Below, one piece after another: positions 6,378 through 52,256 of a DNA stretch of 52,256 nucleotides. The stretch is from Endozoicomonas arenosclerae (lineage in GTDB: Bacteria; Pseudomonadota; Gammaproteobacteria; Pseudomonadales; Endozoicomonadaceae). The DNA is taken from contig NZ_LASA01000057.1 in NCBI RefSeq assembly GCF_001562015.1, positions 1 through 52,256 of the forward strand, in the 5' to 3' direction. How positions within the stretch are numbered: position 1 is the first letter of the stretch; every line of letters begins with the position of its first letter. The position numbers and the translations under genes were made by a program. The notes beneath the pieces were generated by a model, which searched no databases, was not told where the DNA came from, and saw only the letters and a list, made by a program, of their open reading frames with translations.

Positions 6378-6411
6378 GGCTAGCTTTAAGCAGGGTGTAG
6401 TGGTGGTGTTT

Positions 6412-6583: not shown

Positions 6584-6615
6584 TTGTGAAGCGGGTTTTT
6601 AGCTGGCAGTATACT
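6584..6615 (+). promoter_or_regulatory. Possible promoter of the initiator tRNA / rimP-nusA-infB operon
   Basis: A TATACT at 6610-6615 lies about 13 bases before the mature tRNA-fMet 5' end, a good place for a -10 box. A TTGTGA at 6584-6589 is the nearest -35-like sequence, but its 20-base spacing is long, so this is a weak call. In E. coli the equivalent metY gene has the operon promoter. Confidence 0.35.
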
Positions 6616-6628
6616 GGAATAGGTTTGA

Positions 6629-6705
<77 letters not shown>

Positions 6706-6712
6706 AATGACT

Positions 6713-6734
6713 AAACCCCATTATGGGGTTTTTT
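6713..6734 (+). terminator. Rho-independent terminator after the initiator tRNA
   Basis: The stem AAACCCCA/TGGGGTTT with loop TTA is followed by a T-run. It lies eight bases after the tRNA CCA end and would limit readthrough into rimP. Confidence 0.85.
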
Positions 6735-6880
6735 ATTAGGTGCGTCAGAGTCTTTTTAGGGGGGCTTGTGTAGTTAGCCCCGATGGGACTCTAGGAGTTT
6801 GTTGAATTCATGCTCGATAGTGTGTCTTTGGCAGGCTCTTTAGTTGCGTCCAGCTGGAAAACTGGGTGCATAGAAGAGAC

Positions 6881-6902
6881 AGGGCTTTTAAGCCCTTTTT
6901 TT
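6881..6902 (+). terminator. Second terminator or attenuator just before rimP
   Basis: The stem AGGGCTT/AAGCCCT with a two-base loop is followed by seven T. It lies only about 25 bases before the rimP start. The tRNA-fMet to rimP interval thus carries two intrinsic terminators, an arrangement also known in the E. coli metY-rimP-nusA operon where NusA controls its own synthesis. Confidence 0.8.
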
Positions 6903-6927
6903 GTTTTTGCAGACAGGTGTTTCCAAC

Positions 6928-7395
6928 GTGGCAGGTAAGCAGTCGCAGCTGGAAGCATTGATCGCGCCCGTGGTTGAATCCCTTGGCTATCAGCTTTGGG
7001 GGATTGAGTTCAAATCCCAGGGCAAGCAATCAATGCTTCGCATTTATATCGATACCCTTGATAAGGAAAAGGGTATTCAACTGGAAGACTGTGAAGTCGT
7101 CAGTCGCCAGGTAAGTGGGGTTCTCGATGTGGAAGATCCCATCACGGAAGAATATACCCTTGAAGTGTCCTCGCCCGGTGTGGACAGACAGTTGTTTACG
7201 CTTGAGCAGTACGTGGCCTGGGCTGGAGCAGAGGTCAATGTACGTCTGAGGGTGCCTTTTGAAGGGCGCCGCAAGTACAGGGGTATTGTAAAAGGGATAG
7301 AAGATCAGGATGTGGTATTAGTTGTTGATGACCACGAGCTGCTTTTTCCTATTGAGAGCATAGACAAGGCTCAGGTGATACCGAGATTCGACTAA
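6928..7395 (+). CDS. rimP: Ribosome maturation factor RimP
   Basis: RimP helps late maturation of the 30S ribosomal subunit. The GTG at 6928 gives 155 residues, near the 150 of E. coli; the longer in-frame TTG at 6901 lies inside a terminator T-run and is rejected. The family N-terminal domain is clear ([18 protein letters not shown]), followed by the conserved [20 protein letters not shown] segment and a C-terminal SH3-like barrel ending in the [10 protein letters not shown] motif. The gene opens the rimP-nusA-infB operon. A 172-base interval with no gene separates it from nusA. Confidence 0.95.
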
Positions 7396-7567
7396 CTTCA
7401 GGCTCACGGCTGGTAATGACCAGAATAACGAGTGAGTAAAAGGTTCAGGCTGGGTGTTAGCCATTGTCTGCAGCAAAGAAATTGACTACAGGCGAAGGCC
7501 TTCCCGGTTAACGGCCAGGGAAGTGTTGGCAAAGGCATGGACTGGTTCAGCATAGGCGAGGCAGAGC

Positions 7568-9061
7568 ATGAGTAAAGAAATTCTGTTGGTCGTTGAGTCC
7601 GTTTCCAACGAGAAGGGCGTTCCACCCGAAGTGATCTTCGAGGCAATGGAGATTGCTCTGGCGACTGCGACTAAAAAGCGTTACGAAACAGAAGTGGATA
7701 TCCGGGTAGCGATTGACCGCACAAGCGGTGAATACGATACCTTCCGTCGTTGGACCGTGGTTGCGGATGAAGACTTCGAGTTTCCGGGCATGCACTTTAC
7801 CCTGGATGAGGGTAAGGAAAAGGATGAGTCCCTGGAAATTGGTGGTGTCTGGGAAGAACAGGTTGAATCCGTGGCCTTTGGCCGGATTGCCGCTCAGACC
7901 GCCAAGCAGGTCATCGTACAGAAAGTACGTGAAGCTGAGCGTGCTCAAATGGTTGAGCAGTATCGTGACAAACTGGGCGACCTGATTAACGGTACTGTTA
8001 AGAAAACGACACGTGACAGCATTATTGTTGACCTGGGCAGCAATGCTGAAGCGGTGATGCGCAAGGATAATGTGCTTCCCCGTGAAAACTTCCGTATGGG
8101 TACCCATGTTCGTGCCCTGCTGAGTGAAATCTCTACGGAAGGTCGTGGACCGCAGCTGATGCTGTCCAGGACAGTGCCTGAAATGCTGATCGAACTGTTC
8201 CGTATTGAAGTGCCTGAAATTGCTGAAGAGGTCCTGGAGATCAAAGCGGCTGCGCGTGATCCAGGCTCCCGGGCAAAGATTGCAGTAAAAACCAATGATG
8301 GCCGTATTGATCCGGTCGGTGCCTGTGTAGGTATGCGTGGTGCGCGTGTGCAGGCTGTATCCGGTGAGCTGGGTAATGAGCGTATTGATATCGTTCTGTA
8401 CGACGAAAACCCTGTTCAGTACGTGATCAATGCCATGCAGCCAGCAGAGGTTGCCTCCATCATCGTTGACGAAGATTCCGGAACCATGGATATCGCGGTC
8501 AGCGAAGATAACCTGGCCCAGGCCATTGGTCGAAGTGGCCAAAACGTTCGTCTTGCCAGTGAGTTGACTGGTTGGAAACTGAACGTAATGACAGAAGCTG
8601 AAGCCGCTGCCAAGCAAGAAAAGGAAGCGGATAAGTTTAAACAGAGTTTTATTGAACTGCTCGACATCGATGAAGAACTGGCGCAGTTGCTCGTTGACGA
8701 AGGATTCACCACTGTTGAAGAAATTGCCTATGTTCCTCTTGAGGAAATGGTAGCAATTGAAGGCATGGATGAAGAGATCGTGGAAGAGCTTCGCACACGT
8801 GCGAAAGACAAGCTGCTGACCCAGGCCATTGCTCGAGAAGAAAAGTTAGATGGCGCACAGCCAGCTGAAGACCTCCTGACTATGGATGGTATGGATGAGG
8901 AGTTGGCACTGGAGCTGGCCAGCCGGGGTGTCATTACTATGGAAGATCTGGCGGAGCAGTCCATTGACGACCTTCTCGATATAGAAGGTATGGACGAGAC
9001 GCGTGCGGGTGAATTGATTATGACGGCGCGTGCTCCCTGGTTCGAGGAAGCTGGTAACTGA
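7568..9061 (+). CDS. nusA: Transcription termination/antitermination factor NusA
   Basis: NusA binds RNA polymerase and nascent RNA and controls pausing, termination and antitermination. The 497-residue product matches the E. coli length. In order it has the polymerase-binding N-terminal domain (1-130), the S1 domain (about 135-200, [16 protein letters not shown]), two KH domains (about 230-345, with [11 protein letters not shown] and [13 protein letters not shown]), and two acidic C-terminal repeats (about 365-425 and 440-490) which bind lambda N or alpha CTD in E. coli. A GAGG ribosome site precedes the ATG. It is 26 bases before infB and surely cotranscribed. Confidence 0.97.
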
Positions 9062-9087
9062 GCGGGCCACTGAGAGGAGAAGTGTTA

Positions 9088-11616
9088 ATGGCAGAAGTAA
9101 CCGTAGAACAACTCGCGAAGGTGGTCGGCGCTCCGGTCGAAAGGTTGCTGCAGCAGATGCAGGATGCTGGCCTGAAGCAAAGAAAAGCTTCAGAAGCTGT
9201 ATCGGATTCTGAAAAGAAGCAGTTACTGGCTCACCTTAAAGGTATTCATGGTGATCACACAGGTACGGCTGAGCCGACCAAGATCACCCTTAAGCGTAAA
9301 ACTGTCAGTCAGATGAAAGTGTCTGGCGGCGGTGGCGCTGGCAAGAAAAAAGTTGTTAACGTAGAAGTTCGCAAGAAGCGCACATACGTCAAGAACGAAC
9401 AGGCTGAAGAGCAGAAGCCTGAAGAGAAGCAGGCTCGTCGTGATGGCGACCGTCCACCGCGTCGTGATGGAGATCGTCCTCAGCAGCGTCGTGACGGAGA
9501 TCGTCCTCAGCAGCGTCGTGACGGAGATCGTCCTCAGCAGCGTCGTGACGGAGATCGTCCACCGCGTCGTGATGGAGATCGTCCGGCTCGTGCGGGTGCT
9601 CCATCAGGTGCACCAGGTTTTGATCCGTCAGCGGCTCCAATGCCGACACAGGATGGCGATAACAAGCGCGGCAGAAACCGTAAGGCTAAAGATCGTCGTG
9701 ATGAGCCTCGTGAAGAGCGCGGTCGTCGTGGTGACAAGCGTGGTGGTCGTTCAGGCCGTAAGGATGATCGTCGCGGTGGTGGTCGCAAGGCTACTCGCAC
9801 TATCACGCCAGAGTCTATGGCTGCGCACGGCTTCACCAAGCCAACAGCACCGGTAATTCGTGAAGTTTCTATTCCTGAAACCATCACGGTTGCAGAGCTG
9901 GCTCAGAAGATGGCGATCAAAGCGGCAGATGTCATCAAGGTTATGTTCAAGATGGGCTCCATGGTGACCATTAACCAGGTCATCGATCAGGATACTGCCT
10001 CCATCGTTGTTGAGGAAATGGGTCATACCTTCAAGCTGGCCAAGGCGGACAGTATTGAAGACTCCCTGACTGAAAGTCAGGAAGGTGAAGTGACTGAGTT
10101 TGAAGAGAAGTCGCGTGCGCCGGTTGTGACCGTAATGGGTCACGTTGACCATGGTAAGACCTCTCTGCTGGATTACATCCGTAAGAGTCGTGTGCAGGCT
10201 GGTGAGGCCGGTGGTATTACCCAGCACATTGGTGCTTACCACGTTGATACACCTCGTGGCATGGTATCCTTCCTGGATACTCCTGGACACGCGGCGTTTA
10301 CCGCCATGCGTGCTCGTGGTGCCAAGGCGACTGACATTGTAATTCTGGTGGTTGCGGCAGACGATGGTGTAATGCCTCAGACTGAGGAAGCGGTTCAGCA
10401 CGCCAAGGCTGCTGGTGTTCCTCTGGTTGTTGCTGTCAACAAAATGGATAAAGAGGGTGCCGACCCTGATCGTGTGAAGAATGAGCTGTCTGCACACGGT
10501 GTTATCCCGGAAGATTGGGGTGGCGATACTCAGTTCATGCATGTATCGGCTCTGACCGGACAGGGTATTGACGAACTGCTGGAAGCTGTTGTGCTTCAGG
10601 CAGAAGTTCTTGAGCTGTCGGCTGCAGATGAAGGCCCGGCAAAAGGCGTTGTTGTTGAATCCCGTCTGGATAAAGGGCGTGGTCCAGTGGCTACTGTTCT
10701 GGTTCAGTCTGGTGATCTGCAGCAGGGTGATAATATCCTGGTGGGTCAGCAGTACGGTCGTGTCCGTGCGATGCTGGACGAGAATGGCAAGGCTATCAAA
10801 AATGCGGGTCCTTCTATTCCTGTGGAGATTCTGGGTCTGGATGGAACTCCGGATGCCGGTGATGAACTGATCGTGGTTAAGGATGAGCGTAAGGCTCGTG
10901 AAATCGCACTGTTCCGTCAGGGTAAGTACCGTGAAGTCAAACTGGCTCGTCAGCAGGCTTCCAAGCTGGAAAATATCTTCTCCAGCATGGGTACTGAAGA
11001 GAAGAAGACGCTCAATATCGTTCTGAAAGCCGACGTACGTGGTTCCCTGGAAGCTCTGACCAGCTCCCTGGAAGAGCAGGGTAACGACGAAGTACAGGTT
11101 AAGGTTATCTCCGGCGGTGTAGGTGGTATCACTGAAACCGATGCTAACCTGGCGCTGGCTTCTAACGCTGTGATCGTTGGCTTCAACGTTCGTGCCGATG
11201 CTTCTGCTCGTAAGGTCATTGAGACAGAAGAGCTGGATCTGCGTTACTACAGTGTTATCTACGACATCATCGAAGATGTGAAGAAAGCACTGAGTGGTAT
11301 GCTGGGCTCCGATACCCGTGAGCAGATTGTGGGTACCGCTGAAGTTCGTGATGTCTTCCGCTCACCGAAGTTCGGTGCGGTGGCAGGTTGTATGGTGGTT
11401 GAAGGTACTGTTTACCGTAACGACCGTATCCGTGTACTGCGTGACAACGTGGTTATCTTTGAAGGTGAGCTGGAATCCCTGCGTCGCTTCAAGGATGACG
11501 TACAGGAAGTTCGCGAAGGCATGGAATGTGGTATCGCGGTTAAGTCCTACAACGACGTTAAGCCTGGCGACAAGATCGAAGTGTACAAGACCGTTGAGGT
11601 CAAGCGTACCCTCTGA
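9088..11616 (+). CDS. infB: Translation initiation factor IF-2
   Basis: IF-2 is the GTPase that brings initiator tRNA to the 30S subunit and promotes 70S joining. The ATG at 9088 has GAGGAGA upstream and is preferred over the in-frame GTG at 9082. The 842-residue protein has an IF2_N domain (about 1-50), a long basic/acidic linker with six RRDGDRP repeats, a second IF2_N domain (about 255-310), the G domain with GHVDHGKT near residue 352, DTPGH and NKMD, then beta-barrel domain II, domain III, and the C-terminal fMet-tRNA binding domain. The initiator tRNA it binds is encoded upstream in the same block. In-frame GTG/ATG codons near the second IF2_N domain could permit shorter isoforms as in E. 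coli. Confidence 0.97.
9436..9588 (+). repeat. Tandem 24/27-base repeat inside infB
   Basis: Six in-frame copies encode RRDGDRP followed by P, QQ or AR. The three middle units are 27 bases (RRDGDRPQQ) and nearly identical at DNA level; the outer ones are 24 bases. Copy number could vary by slippage without breaking frame. Confidence 0.9.
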
Positions 11617-37615: not shown

Positions 37616-39107
37616 ATGATTACCAATACTTTTGCGACAATAATGACGTTTGTCGTGTATTTGGCCATGATGTTGATGATTGGCCTTTGGGCCTGGAAGC
37701 GGACTTCCGATTCCGCTGACTACTTTCTTGGGGGCAGAAGTCTCGGGCCCTGGCCTGCAGCTCTGAGTGCCGGTGCTTCTGATATGAGTGGCTGGCTTGC
37801 TGCTGGGTCTGCCCGGTTATGCCTTTGCTTCGGGTGTTGAAGCTTTCTGGCTGGCAGGTGGTCTGCTGTTGGGCACTTGGCTGAACTGGTTGATATTGGC
37901 CCGTCGTCTTCGTGTTTACAGCCAGACTTCTGGTAATGCTCTGACCCTGCCTGAATTCTTTACCAACCGATTCCGTGACTCTTCAAAAATGTTGCAGGTG
38001 GTTTCCGCTTTCTTCATTTTGCTGTTCTTCCTTTTCTACACAAGCTCTGGTTTGGTAGCAGGCGGCAAACTGTTCGAAACCGTGTTTGGTCTGGATTACA
38101 CCTGGGCGGTCATTATCGGGACTCTCTGTGTCATCTCTTACACGCTGTTTGGTGGTTTCCTGGCGGTATCATGGACCGATCTGGTTCAGGGCTTGCTGAT
38201 GGCGGCAGCTATGGTAATTGTGCCGGTGATTGCTCTGCAGTCTGGTAACTCCGATGCATCTATTTTTGATCAGCTCCGTGCACATAATGAAGAATTGCTG
38301 AATCCGTTCACCAATTCAACCGGTGAAGCTCTGGGCTGGATGGCTATTGTATCCCTGGTGACCTGGGGTCTGGGCTACTTTGGTCAGCCACATATTCTGG
38401 CTCGTTTTGCTGGCATTCGTTCTGAGCAGGACGTACCTACAGCCCGTCGTATAGCGGTGACCTGGAGTGCCATCTCCATGCTGGGAGCCATCATGGTGGG
38501 TCTGATTGGTCTGCTCTACATCAATGAGATGAGCCTTTCCCTGGGCGATGGCGAAACCATTTTCATGGTGCTGGTTAACGCTCTGTTCCATCCAGTGGTA
38601 GCAGGAATTCTGCTGGCGGCTATTCTTGCTGCGATCATGAGTACGGCTGATTCCCAGCTGCTGGTTTCTTCTTCTGCTCTGGCTGAAGACTTTTACAAGG
38701 CAGTGATTCGTAAAGATGCTGATCAGAAAGAAGTCCTGATGGTGGGTCGTCTGGCCGTTGTGGTTATTGCTCTGGTGGCTCTGGCTCTGGCCATGTCTCC
38801 TGACAGTTCTGTTCTTGGTCTGGTATCTTACGCCTGGGCGGGCTTTGGTGCTGCCTTTGGTCCTGCACTGCTTATGAGTCTGTACTGGAAGCGTATGAAC
38901 CGCAACGGTGCTCTGGCAGGAATTATTGTAGGTGGTGTGACAGTGGTTCTCTGGAAGCAGGTATCCGGTGGGATTTTCGATCTTTATGAAATTGTTCCAG
39001 GCATGCTGTCTGCTTTCATTGCGATTACCGTTGTCAGCCTTATGTCGTCTGAACCGGAAGCGGAAATCGTTGAAGAGTTCGATAATGTAGAGAAGGCTCT
39101 GGCCTGA
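37616..39107 (+). pseudogene. putP: Sodium/proline symporter with a one-base frameshift
   Basis: PutP imports proline with sodium. The gene is nearly intact: joined across the shift it gives about 496 residues (E. coli 502) with family motifs YFLGGRSLGPW, LSAGASDMSGWL, then LLGLPGYAF, ILLFFLFYTSSGLVAGGKLFE, GGFLAVSWTDLVQ and LGYFGQPHILARF. Up to 37,798 the frame is that of ATG 37,616; from 37,800 to the stop it is one base further on. One extra G near 37,799 (in CTTGCTGCTGG) explains it and restores the conserved SGWLLLGLPG. It may be a real mutation or a sequencing/assembly error. Twelve or so membrane helices would follow if read through. Confidence 0.85.
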
Positions 39108-39455: not shown

Positions 39456-40790
39456 ATGCAAACAATAACAAAAGAAAAGCTCACAAACTCCATTGTTGAT
39501 GACCTGGAAACCACAGGAAAAAAGTATCGTATCTGGGATACCAGGGTGTCAGGCTTCTATCTTCAGGTCAGTCCCAAAGGCGCTAAAACTTATTACGTTC
39601 GTTATACCCTTCCCGAGAAGGTAAGCTGTCAGGATTACAAGCTTGGTCGTCATGGTCATCTGTCTCCTGATTCAGCACGCAAACAGGCGAAAATCAAACT
39701 CGGAGAGGTTGCCAGAGGCGTTGATATTCAGGGTGAGAAACAATCGCTGAGAAAAAAAGCCGAGCAGGAGAAAAACAATACACTCGGAAGCTTCGTTGCC
39801 AACATCTACACAGCCTGGGCATTGAAGAACAAAAAAGGTGGTTTGAAAGACCTCAAGCGATTGAAGAAGGTTTTTGGACATTGGTTTTTATTGCAAATGA
39901 GTGACATCACTGTTCGTCGGGTTAATGAATGGCGTACAGATGAACTTGAGCGTGGTCTGGCTCGCAGTACCCTCAACAGGGAAGTTGGAAACTTAAAGAG
40001 CGTTTTGTCCAAGGCCGTAGAGTTTCATATTCTGGAAGCCTCTCCGCTGCGTGATTTGAAGCTCCTGAAGGTCGATAAAAACAAAAGGGTAAGGTATCTG
40101 TCACAAGATGAAGAATGCCGCCTCAGAGTCGCTATTGATGAATATGAGCAGGGACTGAGAGAAAAGCGTAGTCGGTTCAATAAGTGGCTAATTCAACGTC
40201 ATCGTGACTCTTTGCCAGAGCTGGATCAAGTCTTTGCTGATCATGTGAAACCCATCGTATTAATGGCACTGAATACTGGTCTTCGTAAAGGTGAGCTATT
40301 CAATTTGCAATGGACTCATATTAACTGGGCAAACAATGCCCTGTTTGTTGAAGGTGATGGCAGTAAAAGTGGTCAGACAAGACATGTTCACCTGACAGAA
40401 GAAGCTCGTAACACGTTGAGGATGTGGCGGAAGCAAATACTGGCTTCAGAATCTCGATACGTGTTCCCCAGTCCGGTAAATGGTGGACGTCTGGATAATA
40501 TTGATAGTGCATGGACGACAATCAGAAAGTCAGCAGGTTTGCATCTTCCAGAAGAGCCTGACACTCATTTCCGGTTTCACGACCTTCGTCACAGCTTTGC
40601 CAGTAATGCTGTCATGGCAGGGATTGAGTTGAATAAAGTCCGTGAACTTTTAGGTCACAGTACCATTGACATGACCTTGAAATATGCCCATCTCTCACCA
40701 GAGTCGCAGGCCAGTGCTATTGCCATTCTGGATAAGCATATGAAGGCAAAGCGGGGGGCTGATACAGCTTTGGAGTCAACAGTAGGCTAA
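39456..40790 (+). CDS. Tyrosine-type site-specific recombinase (integrase)
   Basis: A 444-residue integrase of the P4-like/DUF4102 group. The N-terminal domain (about 1-95) has the arm-binding fold (RIWDTRVSGFYLQVSPKG), followed by a core-binding SAM-like domain (about 105-195) and the catalytic domain (about 215-425). Catalytic residues are in place: Arg277 in NTGLRKGEL, Lys304, His375 and Arg378 in HDLRHSF, His401 in LLGHST, and the nucleophile Tyr410 in LKYAHLS. It lies 216 bases from the tRNA-Thr half site, reads away from it, and should catalyse island integration and excision. Confidence 0.96.
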   Translation: MQTITKEKLTNSIVDDLETTGKKYRIWDTRVSGFYLQVSPKGAKTYYVRYTLPEKVSCQDYKLGRHGHLSPDSARKQAKIKLGEVARGVDIQGEKQSLRKKAEQEKNNTLGSFVANIYTAWALKNKKGGLKDLKRLKKVFGHWFLLQMSDITVRRVNEWRTDELERGLARSTLNREVGNLKSVLSKAVEFHILEASPLRDLKLLKVDKNKRVRYLSQDEECRLRVAIDEYEQGLREKRSRFNKWLIQRHRDSLPELDQVFADHVKPIVLMALNTGLRKGELFNLQWTHINWANNALFVEGDGSKSGQTRHVHLTEEARNTLRMWRKQILASESRYVFPSPVNGGRLDNIDSAWTTIRKSAGLHLPEEPDTHFRFHDLRHSFASNAVMAGIELNKVRELLGHSTIDMTLKYAHLSPESQASAIAILDKHMKAKRGADTALESTVG

Positions 40791-41366: not shown

Positions 41367-44300
41367 CTAATCACCAACCATTTGCCGCAAACTCTGTTGC
41401 ATAGCCGCCTTAAAGGCTGGGTCAGTCGCCAGCAGCTTATACAGTTCCATTTCCGTCCGACGGTTCTTCAACATAACTTCTTCAAAAATTTTGTCGAACG
41501 CCAGGTCTCGGTTATAGGTATCCTGGTTATCTTTATATTTTTTCTGGAAGTCAGGGTGTGAAGTAATGCGGTCCGCAATGTTCAGAAACTTCATGCGTTG
41601 TTCTTCAGGCGTTGCACTCCAACCCTGAAAATAACGCTCGTTGAACACACGCAGAATTTCGTCCAGCGGGTCGGTTTCCTCCTCGCCACCATGAGCAGCA
41701 CGAGGGTTAGGGTTCTGCGGGTCAAGTTCCGTTTCGCTGTCATCAAGGTCAATTGTATGCCCCAACTTGGTTCGCTCCAAGCCATAGGACGACAGGTCAA
41801 CAGAGTTAAGCAGGTCATCCAGTTGGTCTGAATCCGGGTCTTTAATGATCAGCTTCGGAATGAGGAATTTCAGGAACCAGAAAAGTTTTTCCCAATCCAC
41901 GACCTCATAGGGCATGATCGCCGCCATCTGTCCGTAGATTTTAACGAACTGCTTGGCCTTCACCTTGAAGTCGGCCTTATCAGCGTCTTCCAGTTCCAGC
42001 TCGGTGTTAAAACGCTCTGCTGCCACATCAATAATCGGACTGAGTTTCTGTGCATCAGCACCATCCCAGTAAAGCTCATTGAACTGGTTTACCTCATGCC
42101 ATTCGTACACCCCGGCTTCATCCAGTACGTCCTTCAGCTCATGCAGCACATTCACATCTGTAGCGTCAGACAAAGTAGTAGAAGTGTAGAAGTCATCAAA
42201 AGCATTCTTGATGTCGTCTACTGAGTTAAAGAAATCCAGCACAAACAAGTCTTCGGTTTTCTTGGCCAGCTTCGGTGCAGCACGGTTAAGCCGTGACAGT
42301 GCCTGCACTGCCAGAACACCCTGTAATTTCTTGTCTACATACATTGCCGCCAGTTTCGGCTGGTCAAAGCCTGTCAGGTATTTATTGGCAACCACTAACA
42401 GGCGATATTCATCCTCGTCAAAATAATCACGGGTATCATTCTCCGGGAAACCATTAATATCCTGCTCGGTATATTCAATGCCATCCACTTCTTTGGTACC
42501 GGAGAAAGCAATTACGGCTTTAAACGGGTTGCCACGTTCTGTCAGCAATCGCCCAATGGCCTGATAGTAACGAATCGCCGTTTCAATGTTCTGGGTAATC
42601 ACCATACCCTTGGCTTTACCTTTCAGCTTCTTGCTGTTGACCACCTTGGGAATAAAATGGTCAAGAATCACTTCGGCCTTAACGTCGATGGTTTGCTGAT
42701 GCCGCTCAACATAGGCTCTTAGCTTTTTCTGGGCCTTGGTGGTATTAAACAGCGGGTTGTCTTCAATGGACTTCTGAATCTCGTAATAGCTCTTGTACGT
42801 GGTGTAATTTGCTAATACATCCAGAATGAAGCCTTCTTCAATTGCCTGCTTCATGGAGTACAGGTGAAAAGGCTTAAAGCTGCCATCGCCCTGCTGCGAG
42901 CCAAACTTTTCCAGCGTAGTATTCTTGGGAGTTGCCGTGAATGCAAAGTACGACGCATTACCACGCATTTTACGAGACTGCATGGCATGGATGATTTTAT
43001 CCTGAGCATCCATTTCGTCAGTACTGTTTTGTTCATTAAGAGGAGCATCAGCCTTACCCATCGCCCGGTTCATATTGTCATGGGCTGAACCACTCTGGGA
43101 ACTGTGCGCCTCGTCAATTATTACCGCAAAGCGTTTGTCGCTCAGGTCACTGATACCATCAATGATGAACGGGAATTTCTGAATGGTGGTAATAATAATT
43201 TTCTTGCCTTGCTCCAGTGCGCTTTTTAGTTCAGAGGATTTAAAGGCTGGAGCAATAATGTTTTTAACTTCAGAAAATTCCTTGATATTCTCCCGTAACT
43301 GTTTATCCAGCAGGCGACGGTCTGTCACCACAATCACTGAATCAAACAGAGGCTTCTCAAGGCTTTTAGCCCCAGGTACCTCGGCACTGACCGGATAGGT
43401 TTCAATAAGCTGGTAAGCCGCCCAGGTAATCGAGTTGGATTTGCCAGAACCCGCTGAATGTTGAATCAGGTAGGTTTGCCCTACACCCTTTTCACTGACA
43501 TCCGCCACCAGCTTACGAACCACGTCCATCTGGTGGTAACGGGGAAAGAACAGGGTACGTTTGTTCAGGGCATCTTTCTTTGCACCGTCCAGCCGTATGA
43601 AATGCTGGATGATATTGGCAATGCTCAGCTTGCTGAATACTTCTTCCCACAGGTAAGCGGTTTTATGCCCCTGCGGATTAGGTGGGTTGCCTGCACCAAA
43701 ATCATGCCCCTTGTTAAACGGCAGGAAAAAGGTGCTTTTCCCCGTCAGTTTGGTGGTCATATACACTTCATCGGTGTCCACCGCCATATGCACCAGACAG
43801 CGACCAAACTGCAATAATGGCTGAGTGTTGTCCCGGTCATTTCGGTATTGTTTCTGACCATGATAACGGGCTGTCTGCCCGGTCCACGGGTTTTTCAGTT
43901 CTAGCGTGGCGAATGGCAGACCATTGATAAACAACACCATGTCGATTTCTTGCAGGGTGTTCGCCAGCGAATAACGAATCTGCCGTGTACTGCTGAACAC
44001 ATTCGCCGCAAACCGTTCTTTAACCTTTTCAGAACTGCTGGCCAGTGGTGCAGGGTACATCAGGGTCAAATGGGCGTTATCCACACTTAAACCTTTTTTC
44101 AACAGGTACAACAGACCATACTTTTTCACCAGCCTGTCGTAGCGTTCCAGCACCTTGCGCTGCCAGTCTGCACCCGTCTTCTGGAGCTTTTCCAGTTCGT
44201 CTTTCTGAGTGGCTTCCAGAAATGTCCAGAACTGTTTGTTATCCAGTGCGTACCGTGCGTTAAAGTCCTGTGGATAACCCAATGTGTAACCATGATGCTG

Positions 44301-44411
44301 ACTAAAGGGCAAGTCGCCATCGGCTATCCTGTTCTGATCTTCAAGACAGGTGCCGGTAAGTTGTTTTTCGATAGCGGCTTCAAGTGCCTGTTCGTTCGTC
44401 TGGCTGACCAT
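41367..44411 (-). CDS. hsdR: Type I restriction enzyme subunit R (endonuclease/translocase)
   Basis: HsdR gives the type I enzyme its ATP-driven DNA translocation and cleavage. The 1014-residue product has an N-terminal PD-(D/E)XK nuclease (Asp157 in EIDMVLF, Glu171 and Lys173 in LELKNP), Walker A GSGKS at 321-325, the DEAH box at 433-436, SF2 motif III FAFTATP, and motif VI region QALSRLNRA, then a C-terminal helical domain. This is a full-length subunit with no break. It sits on the - strand, separated from hsdS by two unknown genes and by the higBA pair which is on the other strand; the ATG is within 48 bases of higB, so the two genes share a short divergent promoter region. Confidence 0.95.
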   Translation of the reverse strand: MVSQTNEQALEAAIEKQLTGTCLEDQNRIADGDLPFSQHHGYTLGYPQDFNARYALDNKQFWTFLEATQKDELEKLQKTGADWQRKVLERYDRLVKKYGLLYLLKKGLSVDNAHLTLMYPAPLASSSEKVKERFAANVFSSTRQIRYSLANTLQEIDMVLFINGLPFATLELKNPWTGQTARYHGQKQYRNDRDNTQPLLQFGRCLVHMAVDTDEVYMTTKLTGKSTFFLPFNKGHDFGAGNPPNPQGHKTAYLWEEVFSKLSIANIIQHFIRLDGAKKDALNKRTLFFPRYHQMDVVRKLVADVSEKGVGQTYLIQHSAGSGKSNSITWAAYQLIETYPVSAEVPGAKSLEKPLFDSVIVVTDRRLLDKQLRENIKEFSEVKNIIAPAFKSSELKSALEQGKKIIITTIQKFPFIIDGISDLSDKRFAVIIDEAHSSQSGSAHDNMNRAMGKADAPLNEQNSTDEMDAQDKIIHAMQSRKMRGNASYFAFTATPKNTTLEKFGSQQGDGSFKPFHLYSMKQAIEEGFILDVLANYTTYKSYYEIQKSIEDNPLFNTTKAQKKLRAYVERHQQTIDVKAEVILDHFIPKVVNSKKLKGKAKGMVITQNIETAIRYYQAIGRLLTERGNPFKAVIAFSGTKEVDGIEYTEQDINGFPENDTRDYFDEDEYRLLVVANKYLTGFDQPKLAAMYVDKKLQGVLAVQALSRLNRAAPKLAKKTEDLFVLDFFNSVDDIKNAFDDFYTSTTLSDATDVNVLHELKDVLDEAGVYEWHEVNQFNELYWDGADAQKLSPIIDVAAERFNTELELEDADKADFKVKAKQFVKIYGQMAAIMPYEVVDWEKLFWFLKFLIPKLIIKDPDSDQLDDLLNSVDLSSYGLERTKLGHTIDLDDSETELDPQNPNPRAAHGGEEETDPLDEILRVFNERYFQGWSATPEEQRMKFLNIADRITSHPDFQKKYKDNQDTYNRDLAFDKIFEEVMLKNRRTEMELYKLLATDPAFKAAMQQSLRQMVGD

Positions 44412-44424
44412 GATGATTACTCAA

Positions 44425-44452
44425 TTGACAATGGAACCTTTGGGGTTACACT
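44425..44452 (+). promoter_or_regulatory. higBA promoter, possibly giving a leaderless mRNA
   Basis: A perfect TTGACA (44,425-44,430), 16 bases, then TACACT (44,447-44,452). The start point predicted seven bases on falls on or next to the higB ATG at 44,459, and no good ribosome site precedes that ATG. Confidence 0.55.
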
Positions 44453-44458
44453 TTTACT

Positions 44459-44737
44459 ATGATTTTAAGCTTTCTGCACAAGGGGCTGGAACGGTTCTAT
44501 CGTACAGGTAAAACCTCTGGAATTCAGGCGCAACATGCCAAAAAATTGCAGCGTATTTTGTTCACCCTGAGCAGAGTCAAATCACCTTCAGAAATGGATG
44601 TGCCCAGTTATCGCCTTCATCCCCTGAAAGGAGAACGCAAAGGTATCTGGTCTGTTACCGTCAGTGGCAACTGGCGTGTGACTTTCCGCTTTAACGATGA
44701 AAATGTTGAAATCGTGAACTACGAGGACTACCACTGA
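44459..44737 (+). CDS. higB: Toxin of a HigB/RelE-type toxin-antitoxin system
   Basis: A 92-residue RelE/ParE-fold ribosome-dependent mRNA endoribonuclease. Family features: start [22 protein letters not shown], the [15 protein letters not shown] helix, [24 protein letters not shown] and the C-terminal [10 protein letters not shown] with the typical terminal His. The toxin gene precedes the antitoxin, as is usual for higBA, and the stop shares an A with the higA start (ATGA overlap). The pair is on the + strand within a - strand restriction locus. Confidence 0.94.
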
Positions 44738-45027
44738 TGGAAATGTATAACCCACCACACCCTGGCGAAATACTCGGGGAAGACATACTCAAGCCTCTAG
44801 GGCTTAGCATTACTGAAGCCGCCAGTCACCTGAAGGTCAGCCGTAAAACCCTGTCTAAAATTGTCAATGGTCGTGGCGTTATTACTGCAGACATGGCTCT
44901 TCGGTTGGAAAAAGTGTTTCGTAACCCCTCTGCCAGTACCTGGCTGGCTATGCAAAATGACCACGACCTCTGGCACCTGAAGCAGGGTGAGCTGGATGTC
45001 ACCCCTTATCAGCCGGATGCCGCATGA
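44737..45027 (+). CDS. higA: HigA-family antitoxin
   Basis: A 96-residue helix-turn-helix antitoxin that neutralises HigB and represses the pair's promoter. It begins with the family pattern [18 protein letters not shown], then the HTH segment [23 protein letters not shown] and ALRLEKVF. Translation is coupled to higB by a four-base overlap, with GAGG upstream inside higB. It ends eight bases before the stop of the converging unknown gene. Confidence 0.95.
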
Positions 45028-45035
45028 CCCTGGCC

Positions 45036-46193
45036 TTATGCCCAGCTTTGATTCCCTGAACCTAAGGTGCTACCCACCCCTTTCCAAAGATTACGACCAT
45101 AGCCACCCAATTTACTCCGAACATCATTGGCAATCACCAAACCTGCTGCCCCAAAAGCGACGGCAGTTGTTGGATCACCTGCTCCCAGAACCGAATGAAA
45201 GCTTTTCTCAAGCGAAGTTTGACTGATCAGACCTGCCACAAAACCACCACTCACGATCCCCTTGGCGGCTATCAGCCCAGCCTCTTTCAAGGCTGCTCGC
45301 TGATTATCAGGGTTTTTCAAATCATAAGGGCTGTGATTGATGCCCATCAGATTGAACCCCACTTTTTTGCACAATGACTCCAGCTGCTCTTTACGAGTGC
45401 CTTTTCCCCTGGGATTGGAAAAATACACATTCTGGTACTGCTGACTTTCTTCATGGGCCATCATGCTCTGGTATTGAGGGTTGGCCGACAGCTTTTTCAT
45501 GGCGTTTACAAAAGTACCAGCCCCCTCTCCATGCACCAGCCAGTTTACCCGTGCATCTTTAGCCATAGCCTGTTGCAGAAGCGCCAGCATAATACTGGCG
45601 TGCTTGTCCGATGAATGCTGATCTTTCTGCCAGAAGAGCGAGTAATGATTATTGTGTTTGTTTATGTCCCGCTCAATCAACCGGTAAGCATTGCGGATAT
45701 GCTCAATCAACTTTCTTCCAGCAGCTTCTTTGGTTTCAAACTGGCCGCCTACCGCCGCATAGTGATTATTGTTCCAGGTGTGATCCAGCTCCAGGTGCTG
45801 TCTGAACTCATTATTCGTTTTCCACTTTTCATGTTTTTGGTCATAATCAACCCGGTAGACTCCAGCATTCTGATTACCCGAAGGTGCAATACTGGCATCA
45901 ATCTCCAACAGGTAGATGCCGACATCACCGTTGGAGTCAATGGTGTAGTGCAGACTGCCACCTTCGAGATCAAGTGATTTACTCTCGCCATTACGTGCTC
46001 CTGCCATTGAGCAGAGTTGATAGGCAGTGCGAACAATAATTGTCTTGTAATAATTGCCGGTATGAGTCCGTTTCAGCTCTACCCATAATGGGTAATGCTG
46101 CTTGAGCACATAGACATTGCGATTAACGTTGGCACTTTCACCTTTCCGGATAATTAAGTGCCATGTTCGATTCAGCTGGCTGATGCTGGTCAT
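45036..46193 (-). CDS. Unknown protein in the restriction locus, hydrophobic C-terminus (gene Y)
   Basis: A 385-residue protein I cannot place in a family. The N-terminal 150 residues look beta-rich (LWVELKRTHTGNYYKTIIVR). The middle has a VNWLVHGEGAGTFVNAM segment at about 230, which resembles the nucleophile elbow of alpha/beta hydrolases (GxSxG) but with Glu in place of Ser; whether it is catalytic is unclear. The last 100 residues contain glycine/alanine-rich hydrophobic stretches (GIVSGGFVAGLIS, TTAVAFGAAGLVIAND) that could insert in a membrane. It follows gene X by 56 bases on the same strand, so the two form a pair. A membrane-acting effector is possible; defence role likewise only from location. 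Confidence 0.75.
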   Translation of the reverse strand: MTSISQLNRTWHLIIRKGESANVNRNVYVLKQHYPLWVELKRTHTGNYYKTIIVRTAYQLCSMAGARNGESKSLDLEGGSLHYTIDSNGDVGIYLLEIDASIAPSGNQNAGVYRVDYDQKHEKWKTNNEFRQHLELDHTWNNNHYAAVGGQFETKEAAGRKLIEHIRNAYRLIERDINKHNNHYSLFWQKDQHSSDKHASIMLALLQQAMAKDARVNWLVHGEGAGTFVNAMKKLSANPQYQSMMAHEESQQYQNVYFSNPRGKGTRKEQLESLCKKVGFNLMGINHSPYDLKNPDNQRAALKEAGLIAAKGIVSGGFVAGLISQTSLEKSFHSVLGAGDPTTAVAFGAAGLVIANDVRSKLGGYGRNLWKGVGSTLGSGNQSWA

Positions 46194-46249
46194 AACAAAT
46201 CCCTTGTCGTTTTATTCTCTTATGGCCCTATTGACGATGAGTGTGCCAA

Positions 46250-47197
46250 CTAGGGAATCAATTCCGGTGGCTGGTCACCCGGCCTGGTAATCACTGTATC
46301 AGGCTCAACTTCATATTCACCCTGTCGCCACTGGGGGTAAACCCAGAGTTCAGGGGAACGGGATTGACTGGCACTGGCATCGGGCCAACGCTTCTTTGCA
46401 TCGTTTAATGCCGCCTGGGCAGAAGGGCTGAGTGAAAGCTGGATGCTATTGATCACCGAGTCCCGCAATTCATTCATATGCTGAAGACTGGACGCAACCG
46501 GGGCATAACCCAGATACCAGAAATTTACCCTGAGAAAATAGCGTTGATCCAGGGGAATAAACAGATGACTGTCAAAGCTGGCAGGCTGGCTGTCTAGGAG
46601 TTCGATACTCTTTTTTTTGTACTGGGAAAAATCCATATGCACCTCCTGATAGACCCAAGTGCTGCCATTTACCTCTTTGACACGCCAGTTAACGGGTGCA
46701 CTGAAGTAGCCTTTTGTTGGCCTCATAGGATAATCAAAGTAAAGATCACGAATCAGCAATTGTTCGAAATGGTTGGGGTTAAAGCAGCTCATGGACTCAG
46801 GCAGAGCATCAGAACGGCAAACCACCATAGAAAAATCTACAGTACCTACTGGTTGCTCCCGCCAGACAGGGCCATATAACTCCCAGCTGCGTTTGGTCAC
46901 TCCCTGGGTCTCTAGCCCTTCCTGTTCATAAAGCTCCTTGTATTGGATATCACCCAGTTGCTCTATGCTGGTAAAACTTCGGTCGTCGTATAGATTAATC
47001 TTCGTTTTGACCGGCTCAGCCGGAAACCCCTCATAATCATGATGAGGAGGCAGCTCGACTTTGAGAAGGCTACCCGAGAAGTCTATTTCATAGGCTTCCC
47101 GTTCATCGCACCCGGGTATCCAAGGGTGCTTGCGTGTGGCTAAAAGTCGTTTCAACATCCTGTTTTTCACTTCTTCTTGAGCATCAGACTGTGCCAC
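46250..47197 (-). CDS. Unknown protein in the restriction locus (gene X)
   Basis: A 315-residue soluble protein of unknown family, without signal peptide or membrane segment. It is mostly beta-strand-like with many aromatic residues (WELYGPVWREQPVGTVDFSM, FIPLDQRYFLRVNFWYLGY), a composition seen in several immunity and binding proteins. A Pro-rich tail (EVEPDTVITRPGDQPPELIP) ends it. It is the first gene of the X-Y pair, 74 bases behind hsdS with a perfect hairpin between, so it could be expressed separately from the methylase-specificity genes. An immunity role paired with Y is inference from order and character only. Confidence 0.75.
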   Translation of the reverse strand: MAQSDAQEEVKNRMLKRLLATRKHPWIPGCDEREAYEIDFSGSLLKVELPPHHDYEGFPAEPVKTKINLYDDRSFTSIEQLGDIQYKELYEQEGLETQGVTKRSWELYGPVWREQPVGTVDFSMVVCRSDALPESMSCFNPNHFEQLLIRDLYFDYPMRPTKGYFSAPVNWRVKEVNGSTWVYQEVHMDFSQYKKKSIELLDSQPASFDSHLFIPLDQRYFLRVNFWYLGYAPVASSLQHMNELRDSVINSIQLSLSPSAQAALNDAKKRWPDASASQSRSPELWVYPQWRQGEYEVEPDTVITRPGDQPPELIP

Positions 47198-47233
47198 AGA
47201 ATAGTAGGTGGTTTTTCTGGCAGGTACAAGCTA

Positions 47234-47260
47234 CCTGAATCGTGCCAGGCACGATTCAGG
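47234..47260 (-). terminator. Perfect hairpin between hsdS and gene X
   Basis: CCTGAATCGTGCC pairs perfectly with GGCACGATTCAGG. No T-run follows on the hsdS strand, so it may be a pause or processing structure, or an operator, rather than a true terminator. Confidence 0.6.
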
Positions 47261-47271
47261 ATAGGCAGTTG

Positions 47272-48594
47272 TTACGTTAGTGGTGTTACCTTGATCTTTC
47301 CGGTCACAGCACTGTTGATCAGCGTGGCTCGGTATTCTTTCAGCTTTTCGATTTGCTGTTGTTGCAGGGTGATGGCTTTGTCGATTTTATCGGACTCAAC
47401 CTCGATATGAGCAACTATTGCTTTCTGCTCATCTTCCGGAGGCAAGATGGTCAACAACTGCTTGTATTCATCCCAGTAAAGCCGCTTTCTGAAATCGGTT
47501 ATTCCCTTGGAAAACCGGTCCATTTGTTGGATGAAAATCGGGCTTCGGTATTGGTATTCATAAAACTTAGAGTTAATCGCACCGATAGGCGTTGCTATGA
47601 TGTAGGCGGGACTTACCATACCATCTACCCGAACTGCACCAATTGCACCCTGCCAGGCTCTCATCATGTTGAATACAATGTCACCGGGCTTAACAAGGTT
47701 GTATTTGGTCTTATCCTCTATTTTGACACGGCCTCTGATATTCTCTTCATCAGACACTTCGTCGTCAGATACACCAGAGTGGATGGAAACCATCAGCAAA
47801 GGCAACCCTTCACGCCCAGGCTCAACTCTTTCTTTGAATAAGCTTCGGTTTGCAACCACCTCCCAATGCGCCGGAATCTCCCCAATCCACTCCACACCGG
47901 AGTCACGCATGGGCACTTGCGGATCAAGGCCATGGGTGACAGCATTCTGAATCAGGATTTGCCTGCGCTCTTTCAGCAGCTCGATCTGCTGTTCCTTGAT
48001 GGTAATGGCCTGGTCGATCTGGGTGGTTTTGGTGTCCAGATAGGCGGCTATGGCTTTTTGCTCGTTAACACTTGGGAAGGTAATTTGATAATCCTGAATA
48101 TCTTTAGGTGCTATATGGGGTACCATCGGATCGGTTTTGCTTTGATTTACCCAATTCAAAAACCTATTGCATGCAAGATTCCAATACAAAAAGCGACTAT
48201 CTAGCTTTTCTTTAGTCCTCAATCGAGCAACTCGCTGGAGCAACAATATTGGAAGCTCCTCATTAGCTACCCAACAGAAGTTTTTACCTACCTTAGAGCC
48301 GTCCATTCCTATAAGAATGTCTCCAGCTTTTAAAAGGTATTGCTTTAATTCAGAAGTTATTTCTGGCCAATATTGCGTATCTTTCCAATCTAAAACACCT
48401 TGTTTTACATTGATTCCACGGGCAAGTTTAATGCCTTCGCTAGTATATTTTTCACTTTTAAATGGATAACCCGTCAGCAGTACAATTTCATTTTTGATAC
48501 GGTTGAACGCCCAATTGGCAGGAATGATTCCTGCCCCTTCAACCCCAGAATCCTTATAAGCCTCATACCGAGGCATAGCCGCTAACTCAGTCAT
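47272..48594 (-). CDS. hsdS: Type I restriction-modification specificity subunit S
   Basis: HsdS determines the bipartite DNA target of the HsdM/HsdR complex. The 440-residue product has two variable target-recognition domains (about 15-180 and 220-390), each followed by a conserved helical spacer with the family pattern EQKAIAAYLDTKTTQIDQAI and EQKAIVAHIEVESDKIDKAI. Both start PANW/PAHW motifs are present (GIIPANWAF and GEIPAHWEV). The start overlaps the hsdM stop by four bases, so translation is coupled. Target cannot be read from sequence. Confidence 0.95.
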   Translation of the reverse strand: MTELAAMPRYEAYKDSGVEGAGIIPANWAFNRIKNEIVLLTGYPFKSEKYTSEGIKLARGINVKQGVLDWKDTQYWPEITSELKQYLLKAGDILIGMDGSKVGKNFCWVANEELPILLLQRVARLRTKEKLDSRFLYWNLACNRFLNWVNQSKTDPMVPHIAPKDIQDYQITFPSVNEQKAIAAYLDTKTTQIDQAITIKEQQIELLKERRQILIQNAVTHGLDPQVPMRDSGVEWIGEIPAHWEVVANRSLFKERVEPGREGLPLLMVSIHSGVSDDEVSDEENIRGRVKIEDKTKYNLVKPGDIVFNMMRAWQGAIGAVRVDGMVSPAYIIATPIGAINSKFYEYQYRSPIFIQQMDRFSKGITDFRKRLYWDEYKQLLTILPPEDEQKAIVAHIEVESDKIDKAITLQQQQIEKLKEYRATLINSAVTGKIKVTPLT

Positions 48595-50972
48595 GCTTTC
48601 ACCCCGGTAACTTCAGCTACTTCCAAACCCAGCACCTCGGCAATCAAGCCTTCTGCCTGCTGCTCCAGTGCCACTATATCGTTCGCCACGTCTTTCAGTG
48701 AGCGCAGTGGCTGATGGCGGTAGAAGTATTTGTTAAAGCTGATCTCATAACCAATCTTGGTGGAGTCCAGATTGATCCAAGCTTCGTCTACATGGGGTTT
48801 TACTTCTTGCAGGAAGTAGCCATGAATCTCGTCTTTCAGGGGTACGGTTTCACTGTCCCGCAAGTCAGACGACGGCTCGTAGGTGATAAATTCACCAGCC
48901 TTATCGGTGGAATAGAAACCAAAGTCGGCTAACTGATCTTCTGTACAACTCAGATGATGCAACAGCGCATCCAGCTTATCGCCTTTCAGCTTCAGGGTTT
49001 TACGAACCACTTTCTCGGCGGTTTCGTCGTACCAGCTCATAGCATTCAGAATGGCGTTTTTATCGCTGGCAGCAAGCTTGAGTTTGCCGTCTTTCAGCGT
49101 CTTGTCGACCAGTGCCTTGAACTGGTCGTAGTCGCTGGAAATGTCGTTGTCAATGGCCTCCATTAATGCCGTCGCCACCTGCACTAGATTCCGGCCTTTC
49201 TGCCAGGTATCCATGCTTAACAGTTTTTTGCGGTTCTTGGCGTTCAGGTTCAGTTCGTTATCTTCGCACCAGTCGAAAATAGCTTTTTCATGCTCTTTGA
49301 GCGTGCCTTCTTCATACACCTGTTCACCCCATTCACTGTAAATCCATTCCATAGGCTCACGGAGGGATTTATCGAAACGCAGGGGTTCAATACGCTCAGT
49401 GGTGAATTGCGCTTTACGACGGTCAGGACGCTCGATATTGACCTTGTAGTAACCAAAGTCACTGTTATCGAAGACCTGTGAAGCGATGCCTTCATCACCG
49501 TCACGGTCAACAGCAGCTAGCTCAAGATAGTTAGCCGTGATTTCTGCTACATGCTCCGGCGAAAATTGGCAGTTCTTGTCGCCCAGATTCTTACGCAGCT
49601 TCCGGTAAAGCTGGCTGGCATCAATCAGTTGTACTTTGCCTTTGCGCTGTTCAGCCTTGTTATTGGACAGTAGCCAGATATAGGTGGTGATACCTGTGTT
49701 GTAGAACAAGTTGTTTGGCAACTGAACAATGGCTTCCAGCCTATCGTTCTCAATGATATGACGGCGGATATTACTTTCACCGCTGCCAGCGTCGCCGGTA
49801 AACAGGCTGGAGCCGTTATGAACGGAAGCAATACGGGAACCCTGTGTTCCTGTTTCAAATGACTTCATCTTGCTGACCATTTCCATCAGGAACAGTAACT
49901 GACCATCGCTGGAGCGTGGCGCAGCGTCATAAAGGTCGCTGTTACCCCAGTAATCTTTCAGGCTGATACGGAAACGGCTGTCGATAACGTCGGAGCCGTC
50001 TTTGATGTATTTCTGGTCACTGCTCCAGCTTTTGCCGTAAGGGGGATTGGACAGCATGAAGTCAAAACGTTCTTTGGAAAATTCATCCGTCGCCAGGGTG
50101 GAACCCACTTTGATGTTTTCAGGGTTGTTGCCCTTGATCATCATATCGGACTTACAGATGGCATAAGTCTCGTCGTTGATCTCTTTGCCGTATAGATGAA
50201 TATCCCGGCTGCCATCTTCAGCAGGGTATTTTTCTTCAATAAAGTTCTGGGATTCGGTGAGCATACCGCCACTACCACAGGCAGGGTCGTAAACACTCAG
50301 GGTCAATGGCAGTTCATCCTTGACCGGATCGAACACCAGGTGAGTCATCAGTTCAATCACTTCACGGGGCGTAAAGTGTTCCCCGGCTTCTTCGTTATTT
50401 TCTTCGTTGAATTTACGAATCAGTTCTTCAAACACGTAACCCATGCCAAGGTTGCTCAGGGCGGGCAGTTTGTTACCGTCAGGGTCTTCAGCTTCGTTAG
50501 GGGTCAGGTTGATCAGGGGCGATGTGAACTTTTCCAGTACGTCCAGCAGCACGTCTTTACGTGCCATATGCTCCATCTGGGATTCCAGGTTAAAGCGACG
50601 GATAATTTCCTTCACGTTGGCGCTGAAGCCGAGCAGGTAGTCTTCCATGTTGGCCAGCAGGATTTGCTGGTTATTGGTGGCTGTCTGACAGATTTGAGAA
50701 AGTGTCCACTTGCTGGTGTTGTAGAACACATAGCCGGAAGCGTCTTTAAGTCCAGCATCATCCTGCTCAGTCAACCCAAGCTCATTTTTCTGGAACGACA
50801 CTTCTTCCAGCACCTGTTCCTTGGTCGGCTCCAGCAGACTGTCCAGACGACGCAATACCACCATTGGCAATATAACGTCCCGATACTTGCCCCTGACATA
50901 GACATCTCTCAAACAGTCGTCAGCAATTGACCAGATAAAGGAAACAAGCTTGTTGTGGGCGCTGTGGTCCAT
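48591..50972 (-). CDS. hsdM: Type I restriction-modification DNA methyltransferase subunit M
   Basis: HsdM methylates adenine at the target chosen by HsdS, and protects host DNA. From ATG 50,972 the product has 793 residues: the N-terminal HsdM domain (FIWSIADDCLRD, VILPMVVLRRLD), the SAM-binding DPACGSGG at 229-236, and the catalytic NPPY at 309-312. The length beyond about 520 is unusual for a plain HsdM; the extra C-terminal part is helical and charged and belongs to a longer HsdM subgroup. A GTG-started version 15 residues longer (51,017) is possible but does not fit the family N-terminus. Confidence 0.93.
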   Translation of the reverse strand: MDHSAHNKLVSFIWSIADDCLRDVYVRGKYRDVILPMVVLRRLDSLLEPTKEQVLEEVSFQKNELGLTEQDDAGLKDASGYVFYNTSKWTLSQICQTATNNQQILLANMEDYLLGFSANVKEIIRRFNLESQMEHMARKDVLLDVLEKFTSPLINLTPNEAEDPDGNKLPALSNLGMGYVFEELIRKFNEENNEEAGEHFTPREVIELMTHLVFDPVKDELPLTLSVYDPACGSGGMLTESQNFIEEKYPAEDGSRDIHLYGKEINDETYAICKSDMMIKGNNPENIKVGSTLATDEFSKERFDFMLSNPPYGKSWSSDQKYIKDGSDVIDSRFRISLKDYWGNSDLYDAAPRSSDGQLLFLMEMVSKMKSFETGTQGSRIASVHNGSSLFTGDAGSGESNIRRHIIENDRLEAIVQLPNNLFYNTGITTYIWLLSNNKAEQRKGKVQLIDASQLYRKLRKNLGDKNCQFSPEHVAEITANYLELAAVDRDGDEGIASQVFDNSDFGYYKVNIERPDRRKAQFTTERIEPLRFDKSLREPMEWIYSEWGEQVYEEGTLKEHEKAIFDWCEDNELNLNAKNRKKLLSMDTWQKGRNLVQVATALMEAIDNDISSDYDQFKALVDKTLKDGKLKLAASDKNAILNAMSWYDETAEKVVRKTLKLKGDKLDALLHHLSCTEDQLADFGFYSTDKAGEFITYEPSSDLRDSETVPLKDEIHGYFLQEVKPHVDEAWINLDSTKIGYEISFNKYFYRHQPLRSLKDVANDIVALEQQAEGLIAEVLGLEVAEVTGVKA

Positions 50973-51049
50973 TGAGGGAGCTTCTCTGCAAAGTGAAATC
51001 CAGATAGATTCTACCACTGTTTTTCATAATGCTGTGTAGCAGCATGATT

Positions 51050-51805: not shown

Positions 51806-52256
51806 CAGGGTAATATCCAGGGCAATTGCATCAATTCAGAACGACTGAGCAAAGCAGCTTTTTCAGGTGCTTATGGTCCCACCCTGCTAGCTTCCGGTGA
51901 CTCTTGATACTGCGACTTCCCTTATTGGCTTTGATAGCGTTCAGCGCAAGCCGTCTCAGAATGGAGAAATTTTCAGCCCCATTTCCTGTGCTTATCTGAC
52001 ATGCGTCCTCTGAAAATGCAACGTCCAAAATCCAGTGCAGATTATTCTCCACCGCCCAATGATTGCGACTGATCGTTAGCATTTCCTCAGCGGACATGGT
52101 TCGACTCATAATGTAGAAACGCAGTGCAGTCGTTACTTTACCATTAATCTGCCGGTCATTTTGTACGATGGCCACCTGTTTTAGCCCTGGCCACTCCGCA
52201 GCTACTTCCAGGCCAGAGAGGTCGCTTATCACCCAGCAACAGCGGGTTTCTACACG
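51806..52256 (-). mobile_element. ISAs1-family insertion sequence, partial (window edge)
   Basis: CAGGG at 51,806 begins the terminal repeat of the element; the transposase stop is 25 bases further in. The other end lies beyond the window. The helix-turn-helix gene frame stops exactly here. Target duplication cannot be checked. Confidence 0.85.
51831..52256 (-). CDS. ISAs1-family transposase, C-terminal part
   Basis: The frame is open from the window edge to the stop at 51,831 and gives 142 residues from the C-terminal part of a DDE transposase. The family pattern is clear: RVETRCCWVISDLSGLE near the edge, YIMSRTMSAEEML, then SRNHWAVENNLHWILDVAF (with the catalytic Glu in the ENNLHW motif) and the RRLALNAIK helix. 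The N-terminal two thirds, with the two catalytic Asp, lie off the window. The element sits downstream-to-upstream of the cut helix-turn-helix gene. Confidence 0.93.
   Translation of the reverse strand, partial: RVETRCCWVISDLSGLEVAAEWPGLKQVAIVQNDRQINGKVTTALRFYIMSRTMSAEEMLTISRNHWAVENNLHWILDVAFSEDACQISTGNGAENFSILRRLALNAIKANKGSRSIKSHRKLAGWDHKHLKKLLCSVVLN

Follow-up and report, generated by a model that had tools for sequence, protein, structure and literature searches.

Several cargo effector-immunity pairs of type VI secretion systems (T6SS) have been described, including Tse3-Tsi3, Tle4-Tli4, and TplE-TplEi. Extra or orphan immunity genes are frequent in such pairs, albeit not obligatory, and periplasmic immunity proteins have signal peptides. 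The Eag chaperones (DUF1795/DcrB-like) EagT6 and SciW have the Mog1/PsbP/DcrB fold and form chains of 141-150 residues. Genes for PsbP/MOG1-like proteins have been reported next to toxin genes within T6SS operons, and a role as toxin adaptors was proposed for them (Biol Direct 2012;7:18, PMC3482391). In this work, we analyzed a 52,256-nucleotide stretch of Endozoicomonas arenosclerae DNA (contig NZ_LASA01000057.1, positions 1 to 52,256), referred to below as the window, and within it two adjacent genes, X and Y, located between hsdS and hsdR of a restriction-modification (RM) locus:

45036-46193, minus strand: Y, 385 amino acids, predicted T6SS cargo effector
46250-47197, minus strand: X, 315 amino acids from a GTG start, predicted cognate immunity protein (or Eag-like chaperone) with a Mog1/PsbP-like fold

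A preliminary description of this DNA had placed two neighbouring, co-oriented genes here, and both are real open reading frames (ORFs) at these positions. Our conclusion, to which we give a probability of about two in three, is that X-Y is a mobile pair of a T6SS effector (Y) and a cytosolic immunity protein (X). Compared with the effector-immunity pairs named above, X and Y gave no significant sequence match to Protein Data Bank (PDB) chains. They resemble these pairs in their constant adjacency, their genetic link to T6SS, and the presence of extra or orphan immunity-type genes, and the modelled X shares the beta-sandwich of the Tli4/TplEi immunity fold. In contrast to periplasmic immunity proteins, X showed no signal-peptide-like stretch in a hydropathy scan. 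The model also likens X to EagT6 and SciW, in which the Mog1/PsbP/DcrB fold occurs in much shorter chains than the ~300 amino acids of X. Unlike in Eag systems, X copies are often extra, Y has no PAAR match and no hydrophobic stretch near its N-terminus, and X has no Pfam match to DcrB. The likeness of X to the proteins of PMC3482391 is one of description, and X has no significant Pfam match.

Recurrence of the X-Y pair

The survey covered 61 loci. Besides the window, these were 8 loci of the window genome and its family, 32 chosen through searches of the order and class, and 20 found by scanning 84,980 species. The regions for locus reading were hand-picked. The loci are not independent, as L098-L117 repeat several of L066-L097 (e.g., L102/L066, L103/L070, and L099/L097), these being the same places in two collections. 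X and Y were found side by side on one strand in 59 of the 61 loci. Because related pairs recur to this extent, the observation goes beyond chance. The two exceptions were L072, with X at a contig end, and L117, in which no ORF of either family was detected. The arrangement was X-Y in 26 loci, Y-X in 14, and Y-X-X in 8, with rarer arrays of up to four X. The median gap between X and Y was 17 nucleotides (63 pairs). More X than Y genes were present beside a Y in 16 of 60 loci, and the X copies inside one locus were 23-83% identical. In L067, a Y-X module of the other type is immediately preceded by a window-type X (8919-9803, 42% identity to the window X), a candidate orphan immunity gene.

For the alignments, short ORFs and repeats (judged by the last 150 residues of Y) were removed, which left 49 of the 63 pairs; one X was entered twice. 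Each of the two gene orders corresponds to a clade of its own. In the X tree, 21 of the 22 X-first proteins grouped together (support 0.996), and in the Y tree all 22 rows with X before Y fell in one split (support 0.988). The odd protein in the X tree is the X assigned by pairing to the Y at L022 6486-7640; it belongs to the other Y there. The ORF at 6486-7640 is itself a very divergent, distant Y (7e-7) within a T6SS cluster and possibly represents a further branch of the family, and the kinship of its partner at 5651-6499 to X is doubtful at best (8.5 bits, E 6.6e-5, single target, filters off). The distance matrices of X and Y correlated with r 0.88, a value reached by 0 of 2000 permutations, with species descent uncontrolled. 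Such a value fits co-inheritance of X and Y; it would be compatible with binding or neutralisation, and it indicates co-inheritance only.

Four further loci of the window genome carry relatives, namely C243 (Y 32% and X 37% identical to those of the window), C260 (Y-X-X), C137 (Y-X), and C290 (Y and an X cut by the contig end). Among 37 genomes of the family, the X profiles matched 4 and the Y profiles matched the same 4, and neither X nor Y was found in the 9 other genomes of the genus. A class-wide search with the Y profile was positive in 2 of 369 genomes (G000 and G751). The carriers in the scan of 84,980 species were Microbulbifer, Thalassolituus, Oceanobacter, Oleibacter, and related bins. 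Among 403 ORFs located up to 4 kilobases (kb) from the modules, 7 loci was the most that any family reached, and these loci were one related group with a shared gene order.

Neither X nor Y, searched singly, reached significance against Pfam, NCBIfam, PADLOC, PHROGs, or the PDB sequences; the only matches were below threshold (Calpain_III 0.013, CheR_N 0.09, NucT 0.16, and similar). Profile searches and member-by-member scans of both families likewise yielded nothing significant. A Pfam match to DcrB/DUF1795 was absent among 24 X proteins, that of the window included (E up to 0.5), and among 4 further X proteins (E up to 1). No publication that could be tied to the pair was found within the terms searched, and the main text of PMC11148199, a survey of T6SS pairs by structural bioinformatics, contains none of the terms looked for in it. 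On our reading, X-Y adds a new family to an already known type of system.

Association with type VI secretion

Y-X was found inside T6SS gene clusters at five loci in four genomes, i.e., that of the window and three others of the family:

L010: Y-X between tssG and clpV
L021, L022, L023: Y-X between the second tssC and tssE
L020: Y-X beside tssA, at a contig end

Pfam was used to check ten representatives of the T6SS genes, and BLAST to these ten was used for the others. Pfam supported tssA, B, C, E, F, G, M, and vgrG; tagF, tssL, and clpV are presumed from their position.

The co-occurrence was then counted in 390 genomes of the order. X was present in 20 of them, VipB/TssC in 125, and a second, distinct TssC (query L010:1832-3346, E 1e-130) in 36. 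The three genome sets behind these counts were assumed to be identical, and their listed handles agree. Up to 6 candidates per genome were scored for X and up to 3 for the second TssC, which makes the copy numbers lower bounds. The T6SS subtype with the second tssC was present in 19 of the 20 X-bearing genomes and in 17 of the 370 without X (Fisher p 1.8e-21 by genome). Counted by genus, all 8 X-bearing genera were among the 14 of 142 with the subtype (p 9e-10). In 19 of the 20 X-bearing genomes (all except G346), the neighbourhood of X was read, and Y was beside X in 18; G164 contributed only the contig-end X of L072. The X-first clade, to which the window pair belongs, does occur in genomes having the second-tssC T6SS.

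Two side observations concern the clusters themselves. Loci L010, L021, L022, and L023 each have a tandem of two distinct tssC genes. In the T6SS cluster of the window genome, the ORF at L010 13756-14652, near vgrG, is a Peptidase_M91 "Effector protein" (Pfam 5.7e-14); its match to the NCBIfam XopG model (3.8e-10) is under the cut-off of that model.

Sequence and predicted structure of X and Y

In the alignment of 49 pairs, residue M14 of X was M in all 49 rows and residues 1-20 had a mean occupancy of 0.42. Because M14 is invariant and the first 20 residues are poorly occupied, the start of X is probably at 47158 (M14), not at the GTG at 47197. A 19-residue stretch with hydropathy >1.4 occurred in only 4 of 86 X proteins. 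The AlphaFold model of the window X had a predicted local distance difference test score (pLDDT) of 83.9 and a predicted template modelling score (pTM) of 0.84. The predicted fold is Mog1/PsbP-like, as in the T6SS Eag chaperones and in the immunity proteins TplEi/Tli4. Both the hydropathy and the model agree with the earlier view of X as a soluble, beta-rich protein. X had no relative among viral contigs, and the window X had no match in 50,697 phage records.

The Y proteins are best conserved at residues 201-240 and 41-60, and conservation is low beyond residue 281. Near-constant positions in the 49 sequences are L60 (48), W218 (48), G224 (47), and A231 (49). The preliminary description had pointed to a hydrolase-like HGEGAG segment with Glu in place of the Ser nucleophile (residues 221-226 of the window Y). 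This segment varies over the 49 proteins, the supposed nucleophile position included: E and G each occupy position 223 in 20 sequences, H occupies position 221 in 25, and relatives have FGGSA, QKNGS, and others instead. The assignment of Y to the alpha/beta hydrolases was rejected, as a G-x-S-x-G nucleophile elbow is not conserved across the 49 Y. The window Y has one hydrophobic stretch, at residues 305-323. At least one 19-residue stretch with a mean hydropathy of >=1.4 was present in 44 of 59 full-length Y proteins, and every one of these stretches started past residue 300. The hydropathy scan revealed no signal-peptide-like stretch in Y, and Pfam gave no match to a PAAR or VgrG domain.

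The restriction-modification locus as insertion site

The pair and its surroundings are laid out as follows:

39456-40790, plus strand: tyrosine integrase, Pfam domain, near the RM locus
41367-44411, minus strand: hsdR, Pfam domain, host locus
44459-45027, plus strand: higB-higA, left-hand flank; the empty site has both genes too
45035-47287, strand not applicable: inserted cassette, approximate extent relative to the empty site in L130, ends uncertain by ~10-20 bases
47234-47260: inverted repeat lying between hsdS and X within the inserted stretch, two perfect 13-base arms around a single central base
47272-48594, minus strand: hsdS, Pfam domain, right-hand flank, host locus, outside the X-Y module
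48591-51017, minus strand: hsdM, Pfam domain

The order hsdS, X-Y, higBA, hsdR had been described correctly, and the hsd genes carry Pfam domains. A search for relatives of HsdR across 292 genomes of the order gave 20 positives at E 1e-150, the window's own included. From the 19 other genomes, the surroundings of 8 close HsdR loci (L130-L137) were read. None of the 8 contained X or Y. The closest relative of the RM locus, L130 (hsdR 79%, hsdM 80%, higA 82%, higB open), is ordered hsdM-hsdS-higBA-hsdR, and 5 bases separate the hsdS and higA ends, which makes it an empty site. Homology between the window and L130 extends on the left to ~45053 and resumes on the right from 47288. Because it stops on either side of X-Y, the ~2.25 kb holding X, Y, and the 13-base palindrome is, on this alignment, an insertion in the RM locus of the window. 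In 6 of the 8 loci, the hsdS-hsdR interval held other ORFs of differing sizes; in L130 it held only higBA, and in L137 it was empty. The interval looks like a cargo slot of related RM loci. The association of X-Y with the RM genes is incidental, the locus being only a landing site. Nesting in an RM locus is uninformative on the function of X-Y, which corrects a tempting misreading.

No 13-base palindrome like that at 47234-47260 arose in 100 shuffles of the window. Among 137 loci, the two-arm form was found only in the window copies, and single arms occurred in L095, L121, and L132. The element is a candidate terminator-like hairpin or cassette-end element. A promoter and terminator scan of 44300-47400 gave no more sites than shuffled sequences, and no flanking direct repeats marking a transposition unit were found around X-Y.

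The full-length Y closest to that of the window is from genome G395 (45%, its X 43%), and partial Y sequences of Microbulbifer okhotskensis are closer still (50%). The conjugative plasmid pTHAF38_a of Microbulbifer sp. THAF38 (102,668 bases) carries X and Y, both annotated as hypothetical proteins. The G395 locus was taken as the pTHAF38_a copy because the coordinates agree. The plasmid search returned one record for the window X and none for a C260 X. With one copy inserted in an RM locus and another on a conjugative plasmid, X-Y is by these comparisons a mobile cassette of ~2.25 kb.

Weighing of the explanations

The preliminary description had offered two possibilities, an effector with its immunity protein or an RM-linked abortive infection module. 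The first is supported by the constant pairing, the extra X copies, the T6SS-embedded relatives, and the co-occurrence with one T6SS subtype. The mechanism we propose is that the cassette would supply a T6SS with a cargo toxin and its antidote. Y, the presumed toxic partner, would be loaded as cargo and injected into neighbouring bacteria, where its hydrophobic C-terminal part would probably aid insertion into the inner membrane or crossing of it; the conserved middle (~140-285) is the likely active part. Cytosolic X would bind Y and shield the producer, and diverged extra X proteins may be spare immunity against Y variants from other strains. In the window genome, one copy was inserted between hsdS and higBA. 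The second possibility, in which X-Y would belong to the RM island and act in defence or as a toxin-antitoxin pair (abortive infection), draws on the position between hsdS and hsdR, on higBA and the close integrase, and on the other genes that frequently fill related hsdS-hsdR intervals. The absence of X-Y from all 8 related RM loci, the empty site in L130, the lack of a PADLOC match, the co-occurrence with T6SS, and the window X unmatched among phages make this explanation very unlikely. The same may be said, slightly more firmly, of X and Y as accessory structural or regulatory parts of the second-tssC subtype. Such a role would suit their place among core T6SS genes at 5 loci and the tie to one subtype, but X is missing from 17 of the 36 subtype-bearing genomes, the copies are multiple, strongly diverged, and mostly away from T6SS genes, their place within the cluster varies, and one is on a conjugative plasmid.

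The main rival to immunity is an Eag-like chaperone role of X. Here, Y would again be a T6SS effector, with X shielding its hydrophobic C-terminus before secretion and immunity residing elsewhere or X doing both. The predicted fold of X suits this role, but two to four X per Y in several loci fit immunity better, and no third gene recurs beside X-Y as a separate immunity gene. Moreover, no PAAR match was found for Y, whose hydrophobic part is at the C-terminus rather than the N-terminus, and X has no Pfam match to DcrB. We regard the chaperone explanation as unlikely. A combined proposal is more doubtful still, namely that X is both a chaperone of the C-terminal membrane segment of Y and an immunity protein, duplicated into polyimmunity arrays, with Y as the founder of a new class of toxins specific to the second-tssC T6SS of marine Pseudomonadales.

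Several observations weigh against an effector-immunity pair. For the r of 0.88, shared descent was left uncontrolled, and the count by genus is the sole descent correction of the co-occurrence with T6SS. One X-bearing genome (G294) has neither a second tssC nor a VipB match, and 17 of the 36 subtype-bearing genomes lack X, which is consistent with optional cargo. At all five T6SS-cluster loci Y precedes X, and the window's X-first clade was never seen in a cluster. T6SS marker genes taken from the family's T6SS were found near none of the modules at the 52 loci L066-L117, which lie outside the family, and nowhere in the window, and ten genes neighbouring scattered modules had no T6SS domain in Pfam. 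The fold matched by X is common, also outside T6SS (PsbP, Mog1), and points to no particular function; among the full-length Y proteins, 15 of 59 have no stretch above the hydropathy threshold. If the pair is nevertheless an effector with its immunity protein, two families of hypothetical proteins, as annotated on pTHAF38_a, would become a T6SS effector-immunity family with two clades. This family would be tied to one T6SS subtype of marine gammaproteobacteria and would travel as a ~2.25 kb cassette, and it would become testable whether the Eag chaperone fold doubles as cytosolic immunity.

Other features of the window

An ORF at 37788-39107 encodes a sodium:solute symporter. Its Pfam match begins at profile position 24, and the true start may be upstream. 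The C-terminal part of a DDE transposase lies at the right edge of the window (51831-52256).
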